This document shows, piece by piece, positions 34,439 through 38,970 of a stretch of 64,000 nt of DNA (position 1 is its first letter; each line of letters opens with the position of its first letter). Location of the stretch: NCBI GenBank assembly GCA_007694145.1, contig RECF01000078.1, positions 1 to 64,000 of the forward strand, in the 5' to 3' direction. The notes below the pieces were generated by a model. The model was not told where the DNA came from. It ran no database searches and saw only the letters and a list, made by a program, of their open reading frames with translations. Source of the stretch: Acholeplasmatales bacterium. GTDB taxonomy: Bacteria > Bacillota_I > Bacilli_A > Izemoplasmatales > Izemoplasmataceae. The position numbers and the translations under genes are program-made.

Positions 34439-35617
34439 ATGAGATTCAAACGGATCTTTCTCATCGTGATTGACAGCGTTGGTATCGGCGCGATGCCCGA
34501 TGCGGCCGCGTATGGCGATGAAGGCGCCAATACACTGGGTCACATCGCTGAGGTTTCCGGAGGCATCGAACTTCCGACTATGGCCCAACTCGGTTTGGGT
34601 CATTTAGGACCATTCAAGGGGGTTCCAATCCTAAACGATGTCAAAGGGTTTTACACGAAAATGGCTGAAAAAAGTGTCGGAAAAGATACGATGACAGGTC
34701 ACTGGGAGCTGATGGGCCTTTATGTCGATAGACCGTTCAAAACATTTACGGACACCGGTTTCCCTAAGTCGCTACTCGATGCAATCAGCAAGAAAACCGG
34801 ACGCGGCATAGTCGGTAACATCGCCGCAAGTGGCACGGAGATTATCGAGCAATATGGAGAACATCACCTTGAAACCGGGGATTGGATTGTTTATACGAGT
34901 GCCGACAGTGTCTTGCAAATTGCCGCACATGAGGAGAAAGTGGGGCTTGCGGCACTCTATGACGCATGTGCGTATGCCCGAAAGTTGACTTTGGCCGATG
35001 AGTACAAGCTTGGTCGCGTCATCGCTAGACCCTTCGTTGGCACGGGCAAAGGTGCTTTCTCCCGTACGTCAAATCGGCGTGATTATGCCTTGAAGCCTTT
35101 TGAGAAGACGGTGTTGGATCATCTTTCAGCCGGTGGATTTGATGTCCATGCGTTTGGTAAGATTCGCGATATTTTTGATGGCGAGGGGATTACCTGGTCA
35201 AAAAAACAACCGGACAATGATGCCGGCATGCAACACTTTACGGCCCATGTCAAGGTCGACTTTACCGGCTTGGCATTTCTCAACCTAGTTGATTTTGATG
35301 CGTTGTACGGTCATCGCCGTGATCCGGCGGGCTACAAGAAAGCGCTCGAAACCTTTGATGTCCAATTGTCGAGCTTGTGTGCTGCGCTTAAAGACGATGA
35401 CCTGCTTATGATCACAGCGGACCATGGCAATGATCCGACCCATCATGGTACCGATCACACCCGTGAGTATGTCCCGCTGTTAGTCTATGGTAAACAGCTC
35501 AGTGGTGGTCCATTGCCGATGCGGCAAAGTTTTGCGGACGTCGGGGCTACGATTGCCGACAATTTCGGCGTGACCGCTCCAGTACATGGCTTGACTTTTC
35601 TAGACCTTTTACGATAA
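34439..35617 (+). CDS. deoB: phosphopentomutase
   Basis: DeoB interconverts ribose 1-phosphate and ribose 5-phosphate (and the deoxy forms) in nucleoside salvage. The 392-residue protein belongs to the alkaline-phosphatase fold: metal-binding D in IDSVGIG at the start, GKDTMTGHWE near residue 80, and TADHGNDPT near the end. AAGGAGG lies before the ATG, three bases after the xerD stop. It works with DeoC and DeoD encoded at 54.6-56 kb. Confidence 0.97.
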   Translation: MRFKRIFLIVIDSVGIGAMPDAAAYGDEGANTLGHIAEVSGGIELPTMAQLGLGHLGPFKGVPILNDVKGFYTKMAEKSVGKDTMTGHWELMGLYVDRPFKTFTDTGFPKSLLDAISKKTGRGIVGNIAASGTEIIEQYGEHHLETGDWIVYTSADSVLQIAAHEEKVGLAALYDACAYARKLTLADEYKLGRVIARPFVGTGKGAFSRTSNRRDYALKPFEKTVLDHLSAGGFDVHAFGKIRDIFDGEGITWSKKQPDNDAGMQHFTAHVKVDFTGLAFLNLVDFDALYGHRRDPAGYKKALETFDVQLSSLCAALKDDDLLMITADHGNDPTHHGTDHTREYVPLLVYGKQLSGGPLPMRQSFADVGATIADNFGVTAPVHGLTFLDLLR

Positions 35618-35621
35618 AAAA

Positions 35622-35667
35622 AACGTCCCGCTTCGTAGACCGCATCTACTAAGTGGGACTTTTTTTG
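35622..35667. terminator. bidirectional terminator
   Basis: GTCCCGCTT (35625-35633) pairs with AAGTGGGAC (35651-35659), with an inner GTAGA/TCTAC stem, flanked by A and T runs. It serves deoB and the convergent coiled-coil gene. Confidence 0.8.
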
Positions 35668-35678
35668 GTGTCTAGGCA

Positions 35679-37787
35679 TCAAAAACGGTGGCGCGCTTCG
35701 TCGTGACGGATGCGATTGCGTTCTAGCGCTTGCACATGGTCTTGTTCAAGGCGCTGTAACGCATCCCGCATCGCTTTTGACGTTTTTGCTAAAGATGTAT
35801 CCGCTGCTTTTTTCTTGCTCATGAGTGCTTGCAAGTCACGGGCATGGGTTTCTTTGAGCGTGTCTAGTGCCACCTCAAAAGGCTTAAGAACATCGGCCAT
35901 TTTACGTTCAAAATCATGCTTTAGCACAGTGAGTTTTTCTTCAAAGGGGGCCAGTCGAGGCTTGATTTTCACCAGACCTTCATCGAGTGTTTGCTCGAGG
36001 GTTTGCAGGCGTTCATCAAGAGGTTGCACCGCTTCCTTTAGCATCTTTGCCTGCTCAGCACGGGCGTCTTTTTTTGCCTCATCAATGTGTGTCTTTAGCT
36101 CTGCAACTCCGAGTTCATGCGCTTCAATTAGAGCCTCTAACCGCTCAGTCTCCGATTTCCTTGAAACGTCGCGATCTTGACGGAGTGCTTTCAATTGGGT
36201 CTCGTAATTGTCATAGAAAGGCTTATAAGCCTGTTTCATGGCGCGCATGGACTGTCGCGCCCAACCTTCCATCACGTGGTGGATTTGATCGTGTAATGGT
36301 TTGATGTGCGCCCTGATTTTCGCATAGGTCGCCTTTTTCATGGACTTAAGTTTCTTGCGCGTTTTTTCAAACAACTCTTCTAGGGGCAGCCACAAGCCTT
36401 TCAAGTCATTTTCGGCTTGCGTCGCAATTTTTTTCATTTCAATCTGATGTTTTTTTTGCGCCGAATGTTGTTTTTTTTGAGAGCGTGTTTCGATGTCAAG
36501 TTGGTGTTGGCGCATCTGGGCATCCTGCTCGACATCGATGCGTTTGGCGAGCCAGGACGTTAGGGTCTGATGCAGCCGTTCCTGAAAATCTTCTGAAGCG
36601 ATTTCCATAAACTGGTCGATGTTTTCCTGTGCTTGATTCAAGGCTCGTTCAGCTTGAGTCAGCGTTTCTTGTAGCGCCTTCAAGTCGTGACGAATCTGAA
36701 TGTGATGTTGTTTTAGTTCTTTGTCGAGCTGATGGCGTTTTTCCCGTACATTCGCCTCGGGTGCGTCATAGCGTTCGTTGATTTCATTGATATGGTGTTG
36801 CTTTTTCTGTTGGAACGCGAGAATTTGATCGGCTTGTTGCTTGAGTTCAGCACGCAAACGTTTCTCCAAGTTTTTCTCTTTTTCACGCCCTTGCAGTTCA
36901 AGCGTCTTAAGCAAGGTTTCACGCTCGGTCCTTTTTTCTTGCAATGTCCTTTGCAGGTCCTCAAGCGATCTATCTTGTGCCTTGATGATTGCGTCACGTT
37001 CATATTCTAAAGGCACCCTTGTTTGTAAGGTTTTTTGCGCTTGATGCGCCCGTTCGATGTCACGGTTCAGAGCGATGATTTTGGATTGAGTAACGTACAG
37101 GTCGTGCTTGATATCAAGGGCTCTATCGACCATGCTGATTTCATGTTCATGGCGGCGGATTGCGAGTGCATGGGTCGCAGCCCAGTGGGCTTGTTGTCGT
37201 TCCTTGTCATGACGCACACACACATCGGCGTAACGTTTTAACACATCCGCACGCAAGCGCTGCGTCACGATGGCGAAAGGCTCCGAAACTGAAGAACCGG
37301 TTGTAGTGTGATACGCTTGAGCAAACGTGACAAACGGTCCATCAATTACTTTTTCAGCAGCTTTGATGCGACCATCCGCGTCGTTGCCATGTGAAGAGAG
37401 ATGTGTCGCAATCCGTGTGGCATCTTTTTGATAGGCCTTGTCAATCTGCTTACGCAGCTTGGGATTGTTTGGGATAACTGTCACAGTTTCCCAAAGCATG
37501 GTAAGGACTTCTTCATAACCTTTAATCAATACTTGGAAACGCGCTTTTTGTGTTGCGACACGACGCCGTTTTTCTTGTGCGTCAAACTCATGATTATGTT
37601 GCTTTTGTGTTTTGAGAAGAAGTTTATCTGCGTCTGCAGGTAGCTCTTTTTCCTTATTTTCAAGTTGTACGAGTGTCTTTTCAAGCTGTTGGCGTGCTTG
37701 ATACAGCGTATGCAAATCGTCTTCATGTTTTTTCTGAGTAGCTTGCAAAGCTTGTGCAAGTGTCTCTTCCGTCATAGCTACGGACAT
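35679..37787 (-). CDS. large coiled-coil protein, unknown
   Basis: The 702-residue protein is almost wholly alpha-helical, with long heptad-like runs of Glu, Lys, Gln and Leu across about residues 1-100 and 180-690. No nucleotide-binding motif, signal peptide or membrane segment is present, so it is not an SMC ATPase. It could be a cytoskeletal, scaffolding or nucleoid protein; I recognise no family. AAAGGAGG lies eight bases before the ATG, and a minus-strand TATAAT is at 37823-37828. It is monocistronic, between deoB and ruvB. Confidence 0.8.
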   Translation of the reverse strand: MSVAMTEETLAQALQATQKKHEDDLHTLYQARQQLEKTLVQLENKEKELPADADKLLLKTQKQHNHEFDAQEKRRRVATQKARFQVLIKGYEEVLTMLWETVTVIPNNPKLRKQIDKAYQKDATRIATHLSSHGNDADGRIKAAEKVIDGPFVTFAQAYHTTTGSSVSEPFAIVTQRLRADVLKRYADVCVRHDKERQQAHWAATHALAIRRHEHEISMVDRALDIKHDLYVTQSKIIALNRDIERAHQAQKTLQTRVPLEYERDAIIKAQDRSLEDLQRTLQEKRTERETLLKTLELQGREKEKNLEKRLRAELKQQADQILAFQQKKQHHINEINERYDAPEANVREKRHQLDKELKQHHIQIRHDLKALQETLTQAERALNQAQENIDQFMEIASEDFQERLHQTLTSWLAKRIDVEQDAQMRQHQLDIETRSQKKQHSAQKKHQIEMKKIATQAENDLKGLWLPLEELFEKTRKKLKSMKKATYAKIRAHIKPLHDQIHHVMEGWARQSMRAMKQAYKPFYDNYETQLKALRQDRDVSRKSETERLEALIEAHELGVAELKTHIDEAKKDARAEQAKMLKEAVQPLDERLQTLEQTLDEGLVKIKPRLAPFEEKLTVLKHDFERKMADVLKPFEVALDTLKETHARDLQALMSKKKAADTSLAKTSKAMRDALQRLEQDHVQALERNRIRHDEARHRF

Positions 37788-37822
37788 GAACTCACCTCCT
37801 TTGAAAAACCTTGACTGAGCCT

Positions 37823-37831
37823 ATTATAGCA
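37823..37831 (-). promoter_or_regulatory. extended -10 promoter of the coiled-coil gene
   Basis: On the minus strand this reads TGC then TATAAT, 36 bases before the start codon. Confidence 0.6.
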
Positions 37832-37916
37832 TGAAGAAAAACGCTTCACAATTCAATGTGGCAACGACCGTGTCTTTTGCCGAAGATTATTTCAACATTT
37901 ATCCAAGGACTTGGGA

Positions 37917-37944
37917 TTGAATTCATTGGCCTTTGGTGTATAAT
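37917..37944 (+). promoter_or_regulatory. promoter of ruvB-queA
   Basis: TTGAAT at 37917-37922 and TATAAT at 37939-37944 are spaced by 16 bases, 19 bases before ATG 37963. Confidence 0.7.
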
Positions 37945-37962: not shown

Positions 37963-38970
37963 ATGAATGAACGACTGGTGACTCCTGACACGGTTCAGGA
38001 AGATATTGAAACATTGAGTCTTCGCCCGACACGGCTTGCAGATTATATCGGCCAAGATCACGTCAAAGAGATGATGGATATTTTTATCCGTGCGGCCAGA
38101 CAGCGAAAAGAAAGTCTTGACCACGTGCTTTTATACGGTCCCCCAGGACTTGGCAAGACGACGCTTGCCAACATTGTCGCCCATGAGACAGGGGTCAAAA
38201 TCAAGGTCACAAGTGGCCCAAGCATCGAGAAGAGTGGCGATCTTGCCGTGTTGCTGACGAGCCTTGAACCCGGTGACATCTTATTCATCGATGAAATTCA
38301 TCGACTGCCGCGTGTGGTCGAAGAAGTGTTGTACCCAGCAATGGAAGATTTTGCCCTAGATATTATTGTCGGCAAGGAAGAAACATCGCGGGCGTTACGG
38401 GTTGACTTGCCACCCTTCACCCTGATTGGGGCCACCACACGTTTTGGTGATCTGTCTGCGCCTTTACGTGACCGGTTCGGGGTCGTGCACAAACTCGAAT
38501 ACTACGATCAGGAAGCGCTTGAAAAAATCTGTGCGCGAACCGCGCGGATCTATGAGGCTGAGATTGACAAGGCGAGCATTGTTGAGATTGCCTTGCGTAG
38601 CCGCGGTACGCCTAGGATTGTCAATCGGCTGTTCAGACGCATCCGTGATTTTGCTGACGTCTTGAATGATGGCATGATTACGCTTGACATTACCCGCCTC
38701 GCGCTAGATAAATTGGCGATTGATCCCTTGGGTCTTGACCCGATGGACTATGATTACTTGTATGGTCTAATCAATAAATTCGGAGGGGGTCCGGTCGGGG
38801 TTGAGAGTCTTGCTTCGGCGATTGCGGAAGAGGTGTCGACGCTTGAAGATGTCTATGAGCCGTTTTTACTCAAACTCGGTTTCATCCAACGGACACCACG
38901 TGGACGCGTGGCGACAGAAAAAGCTTACCGCCACTTGAAAGTTCCCCATCAAGGTGGTTTGTTCGAATGA
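37963..38970 (+). CDS. ruvB: Holliday junction helicase RuvB
   Basis: RuvB is the AAA+ motor that drives branch migration of Holliday junctions with RuvA. The 335-residue protein has Walker A GPPGLGKT at residues 59-66, Walker B FIDEIH near 107, and the C-terminal winged helix. GAGGTG six bases before ATG 37963 sets the start, because an upstream in-frame TTG lies before the -10 element. ruvA, normally just upstream, is not in the window. It overlaps queA by four bases. Confidence 0.97.

Follow-up and report, generated by a model that had tools for sequence, protein, structure and literature searches.

The closest described counterparts of the protein considered here are long helical proteins from other systems. 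FilP and Scy of Streptomyces contain extended hendecads, with a Scy rod of more than 1000 residues and Ala-rich cores in the dimeric hendecads of both proteins, according to a review (PMC9858780), which also puts an undistorted helix at 3.63 residues per turn and heptads at 3.5. Perilipin 4 is presented as a giant amphipathic helix (PMC5889406). The organisms concerned, Ca. Izemoplasmatales, are wall-less; electron microscopy revealed no wall in zrk13 (Xianfuyuplasma coldseepsis) or zrk29 (Hujiaoplasma) (PMC8397711, PMC10470597). The transpeptidase domain PF00905 was found in 0 of 61 genomes of the order, including the assembly analyzed here, with 10 of 14 controls positive.

The window, a 64,000-nucleotide stretch of contig RECF01000078.1 from a member of the Izemoplasmataceae, carries on its minus strand an open reading frame of 702 codons (35679–37787) encoding an all-helical protein, termed W. 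Its Shine-Dalgarno sequence AAAGGAGGTG (37793–37803, minus strand) places AGGAGG 7 nt from the ATG, and AGGAGG-like sites precede the corresponding gene, A, in at least 9 of 11 relatives. A promoter-like TTGTGA-17-TATAAT (37823–37851, minus strand; 10 of 12 matches, TG ahead of the −10) lies upstream, where the scan around W found 3 such sites against 2.3 expected from shuffles, and is divergent from a promoter-like site of ruvB (37917–37944, plus strand). The neighbors are housekeeping genes that served as synteny anchors: deoB (phosphopentomutase; 34439–35617, plus strand; TIGR01696, 535 bits) is convergent and 62 bp from W, and ruvB (37963–38970, plus strand; TIGR00635, 450 bits), followed by queA, is divergent. 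Between deoB and W, a hairpin flanked by T/A runs (35625–35659) forms a putative bidirectional terminator, with fold z-scores of −4.5 on the minus and −5.7 on the plus strand, neither of which was equaled in 200 shuffles; it is absent from the output of the pattern scan that listed the promoter-like sites. No Walker A pattern was found in W, and its highest 19-residue hydropathy of 0.83 indicates no membrane segment. Thus, the first-pass annotation of this locus was correct in describing a real 702-residue frame with a very strong ribosome binding site and a soluble product with neither ATPase nor membrane segment, and the promoter-like site agrees with its claim of an own promoter. Codon use is gene-like (+0.06 bits per codon, compared with −0.19 to +0.13 in 17 neighboring genes), but one antisense frame scores +0.097 bits per codon, a poor discrimination that makes codon use too weak as proof of coding. 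The AlphaFold model of W is all helical and weak (pLDDT 62.9, pTM 0.29). The net charge of W is +13; that of A averages −20.

By sequence alone, W has no relative at E 0.001 in the 61 genomes other than itself, no match in GTDB contigs, viral contigs, plasmids or phages, and no second sequence in 49 family genomes, where the best other match reached E 0.066. A search for homology to SMC or phage tail proteins, the identification that the first-pass annotation had set against its own, returned nothing clear; only weak matches appeared, to SMC_prok_A (E 0.78, 7.3 bits, cut-off 729), phrog_3017 'head maturation protease' (E 0.0011, 19 bits) and PADLOC LmuB (E 1e-4, 18.6 bits), all of which we read as compositional. 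W was rejected as a phage tail protein on the grounds of its housekeeping neighbors, the lack of a tail family match in PHROGs and the absence of any match in phage and viral collections, and as an SMC or Rad50 member for want of a Walker A pattern or a significant SMC model match.

The picture changes when the slot between ruvB and deoB is followed across the order. We fetched 53 loci around ruvB from relatives (L032–L084) and called gene A at profile scores above 100 bits. A is present in 46 of them and divergent from ruvB in all 46, at a distance of ~4.4 kb in three. A second gene, B, accompanies A in 37 loci, in every case adjacent, on the same strand and behind A, so that it sits between A and the end of the slot occupied by the hairpin in the window. 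The median A–B gap is 13 nt, the single overlap of 257 nt reflecting an over-extended start, and B is convergent with deoB in all 24 loci where both are visible. A measures 1086–1243 aa (40 sequences, two of them cut at the locus end and some with over-extended starts) and B 922–989 aa (34 sequences). Of 61 relatives, B was detected in 46 and A in 50, the count for A taking in the window genome, which itself contributed a row to the alignment. Among 395 genomes of the class, A gave 53 matches and B 55. Those inside the order, 48 for A and 46 for B, score at least 67 and 150 bits, respectively; the 5 (A) and 9 (B) beyond it reach no more than 26.5 and 22 bits and are read as chance between helical proteins. 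The earlier description of W as lineage-specific therefore holds at the level of the order among these 395 genomes, whereas that of an orphan does not: sequence-only searches are empty, yet W occupies the slot of a conserved gene and matches its profile. In GTDB contigs, 28 loci with B came up, under titles that name Candidatus Izimaplasma/Izemoplasma and Mollicutes bacteria. Six A/B proteins were scanned without any Pfam or NCBIfam family above cut-off, and searches of open-licence PMC papers brought up none on these proteins or on the C family described below, although prior mention elsewhere is possible.

Seven loci have no A (L033, L034, L047, L076, L077, L083 and L084). L034 ends at a contig end, where a short piece of A was detected, and four others (L076, L077, L083, L084) are cut or otherwise arranged. 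In the remaining two, L033 (genome G012) and L047 (G034), the slot is intact with neither gene, ruvB lying directly behind deoB in G012 and a different gene filling the slot in G034. Neither A nor B was found elsewhere in these two assemblies, which indicates that the pair is dispensable in some members. In the f2 family (G037, represented by L072, and G039, G041 and G043), A is divergent too, at ~4.4 kb in three and 315 nt in L072, and B was recognized in G037 only. Separately, a contig titled 'Thermoplasmata archaeon isolate B1Sed10_34' (L123, PULU01000115.1) carries an A with the same score and ends as that of L120 and a B scoring nearly identically; it is probably a mis-binned contig in an archaeal assembly, L120 being the Mollicutes locus. 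In the B alignment (A6), residues 542–616 of the L120 protein contain near-invariant Q, R, G, T, Q, F, A, Q, E and R, and surround the break between two long helices in the predicted model, itself weak (pTM 0.36). This stretch, missing from A, is likely a hinge or binding site. A and B may be paralogues: they align by hhalign at E of about 1e-11, yet in two different registers and with reversed controls at 1e-5 to 3e-6.

W shares with A its locus, its orientation and its all-helical rod character. On a profile of A built without W, W scores 71.7 bits, compared with a maximum of −7.2 bits for 201 W decoys (reversed, heptad-block and register-preserving shuffles) and −7.6 bits for 34 B proteins; a 35th row filed as B (L054_B, 424.8 bits) is a cut A. 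By hhalign, residues 276–667 of W (35787–36962, minus strand) match A columns 621–1013 on one diagonal at E 2.7e-10, over 398 columns with 5 gaps in W and 4 in A; reversed A gives 0.034 and B gives 0.073. Residues 450–702 alone match A at E 5.8e-8 (208 columns), and residues 190–450 alone at E 0.0013 in a different register. Stricter decoys reveal how much of this is residue pattern. Those keeping the hydrophobic pattern of W reach 26.7 bits on the A profile, and those keeping its six-class residue pattern reach 64.2 (mean 21.1, n = 200) against 72.2 for W on a wider profile; on a family-only profile the values are 50.1 and 80.0. High scores of such decoys mean that much of the W–A match lies in the pattern, and C proteins, which reach 24.3 bits on the A profile, likewise show that part of any score is shared pattern. 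C itself was rejected as a closer relative of W, which scores −9.3 on the C profile. Pattern, register and locus nevertheless agree.

The differences from A are equally evident. The N-terminal ~190 residues of W (37218–37787, minus strand) have no detectable match to A or B, hhalign of residues 1–200 giving E 0.057 and 0.34, close to the 0.2 and 0.35 of the reversed profiles; the last ~150 residues of A are missing; and the conserved ID..FLDT..KEI motif of A is absent. No B lies behind W, and none was found in the 92.6%-complete window assembly, where one of the searches was run without a positive control. Given its shortness and the absent motif, W is called a reduced descendant rather than a typical member, and it is the only reduced form in the fetched set. 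G012, which lacks both genes, is among the closer relatives, its RuvB being 82% identical to that of the window genome. A RuvB+QueA tree groups the window genome with G003 and G018, but with clade supports of 0.39 and 0.63 and no value at the innermost node it serves as a hint only.

The type of helix was examined by Fourier analysis of hydrophobic residues in 100-residue windows. W peaks at 99.0 degrees, or 3.64 residues per turn, with a power of 6.3 (8.1 over residues 190–702) that 0 of 300 shuffles reached. Heptad power is 1.7 for the whole protein and 1.1 over residues 190–702, with shuffles at about 1.0. All 40 A proteins peak at 99.0–99.5 degrees and all 5 C proteins at 99.0, giving W, A and C a common period of 3.62–3.64 residues per turn; the signal of B is weaker, 25 of its 34 proteins falling at 98–101 degrees. 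Among control segments of MukB and SbcC, whose bounds are those we take to delimit the arms (for example MukB 340–560), four of five peak at 102.0–104.5 degrees, near 3.5 residues per turn, and MukB 340–560 at 121. Since 3.62–3.64 is the period of an undistorted helix, W is better described as a straight amphipathic rod than as the coiled coil, in the heptad sense, of the first-pass annotation. The period of W falls between 18/5 and 11/3, and its autocorrelation at 7, 11, 18, 29 and 40 reveals mixed 7- and 11-residue spacings. Large hydrophobic residues make up 65% of the innermost angular bin, in which the Ala fraction is 0.032 compared with 0.105 overall; following the reasoning of the review (PMC9858780), such an Ala-poor core would make tight hendecad dimers less likely and favor larger bundles or a surface such as a membrane. 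A proline-punctuated stretch spans residues 468–636, and no clear class-A (apolipoprotein) charge pattern was seen in W, A, B or C. Median identity among the A proteins is only 12.7%; that the helical period hardly varies at such low identity suggests selection on a physical property.

C, the third family of giant helical proteins (about 880–900 aa), is unlinked to the ruvB slot. It was matched in 28 of 61 genomes, of which G026 drops out as a match to its own A gene; the other 27 all fall within 37 family genomes. The C of the window genome is full length at 900 aa (G000:C48:11549–14167; L143:3550–6252; 130 bits), has no Pfam match at E 0.1, and is followed by a gene named cardiolipin synthase in NCBIfam and then by an ABC-type ATPase-like ORF. 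Of 9 genomes inspected, 7 have C next to cardiolipin synthase, with PLD domains seen in two; C also lies close to a triple mreB in 5 of 11 mreB-bearing genomes (G006, G008, G010, G022 and G029). Loci L129, L130, L132 and L133 each show three tandem mreB genes, then a gene of 480–483 aa, then C; in L129 the intervening gene encodes an EAL protein. The MreB family PF06723 passes its cut-off in 53 of 61 genomes, but 42 do so only at 59–83 bits, mostly in frames of ~600 codons taken to be DnaK; 11 genomes have matches above 340 bits, and the window genome has the weak kind only.

The sequences themselves show the slot, the match to A, the period, the absence of B and transpeptidase genes from the assembly, and the linkage of C to cardiolipin synthase and mreB. 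W is most likely, at present or in the past, a structural rod: a shortened A whose partner B was lost. We give about an even chance to the fuller reading, in which W descends in reduced form from a scaffold family that has so far gone unannotated and that probably acts at the cell cortex or faces the membrane. An ancestral A, a giant helical protein divergent from ruvB with B normally behind it, would have been shortened to W, which would retain the central-to-posterior rod minus the ID..FLDT..KEI motif and the C-terminal end and, if still working, would act without B. A, W and C are straight rods with no supercoil, their hydrophobic stripe following the helix axis. Such rods may bundle laterally or line the membrane from within, and could in this way form a cortical scaffold in cells without a wall. 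The scaffold role proposed for A, B and C draws on four points: the type of helix, the missing wall, the conservation of the genes across the order, and the proximity of C to mreB and to genes of membrane-lipid synthesis.

Whether W still functions is where a competing explanation enters, namely that it is a decaying remnant: B would have been lost, A would be eroding in this lineage, and the 702-codon frame would represent a recent stage. The losses favor decay, in that W has neither the conserved motif nor either end of A, stands alone as a reduced form in the fetched set, has no second sequence in the 49 family genomes and has in G012 a nearby relative without A and B; function is favored by a frame that runs through 702 codons without a break, by an intact Shine-Dalgarno, promoter-like site and terminator, and by a 3.64-residue period equally sharp in W and A. 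Decay is possible, if unlikely.

Possible to the same degree, if unlikely, is that A and W act in the cytoplasm as filament or polarity proteins analogous to FilP and Scy, hendecad-rich and without lipid contact. Like these actinobacterial, DivIVA-like proteins (PMC9858780), W would be a long soluble rod of heptad/hendecad type with no ATPase, and its mixed 7- and 11-residue spacings fit. However, a Pfam search at E 1 detected no DivIVA in W or the six A/B proteins, the core of W is poor in Ala where FilP and Scy have Ala-rich dimeric cores, and the phylum differs. Whatever the analogy, the filament-forming or polarity protein suggested by the first-pass annotation lies in the right neighborhood and may be kept as a candidate role for W.

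A lipid coat, with W and A covering the membrane or lipid bodies in the manner of apolipoproteins or giant perilipins, is doubtful. W resembles apolipoproteins A-I/A-IV and perilipin 4 in being a very long amphipathic helix with a straight hydrophobic stripe and in its proline-punctuated stretch, and C adjoins cardiolipin synthase. The A profile, with W in the alignment, matches PDB apolipoproteins (best apoA-IV, E 1.7e-7, columns 779–949), and one of six A/B proteins matches Pfam Apolipoprotein at E 8e-4; but the best score to that family (PF01442), from one A protein, is 19.6 bits where the curated cut-off is 90, PF01442 is not matched in W, W alone has no PDB match, and B finds nothing better than E 0.09 in PDB. 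Amphipathic helices match one another by composition, the class-A charge pattern is not clearly seen, and the apolipoprotein match is treated as a likeness of helix type.

Finally, that W partners RuvB in the nucleoid or in DNA repair, or is an SMC relative without a head, is highly improbable: in the constant ruvB neighborhood, the sole support for the nucleoid role raised in the first-pass annotation, the gene is divergent from ruvB and not co-transcribed with it, W has no ATPase motif, and the long helical arms that W and A share with SMC, MukB and SbcC differ in period and in W and A come with no detected head domain, and MukB, which Foldseek ranks first for the B model and which is the only one of 278 listed matches at E ≤0.001 (E 1.6e-4), has a TM-score of 0.06. 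For W itself, none of the 242 matches listed by Foldseek reached E 0.001 or better, and with no convincing match and weak models for both W and B, fold comparison was dropped as evidence.

Returning to W as a shortened scaffold rod, a broader and more tentative proposal, which we think improbable as a whole, is that Izemoplasmatales possess a membrane skeleton of giant unsupercoiled amphipathic rods, formed by A, B and, in the Izemoplasmataceae, C, that mechanically replaces the lost wall. The window genome would then show this skeleton in its smallest form: an A rod of 702 residues and a full C, with B missing. If true, this skeleton would be one previously unannotated, in which C is associated with cardiolipin synthase and, in some genomes, with three MreBs. 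Rod proteins that sequence searches label orphans can be placed through synteny and helical period. The shape-keeping of free-living wall-less bacteria is poorly known beyond mycoplasmas and spiroplasmas, and an A/B pair confined, among the genomes searched, to one wall-less order would provide candidates in two cultured species.
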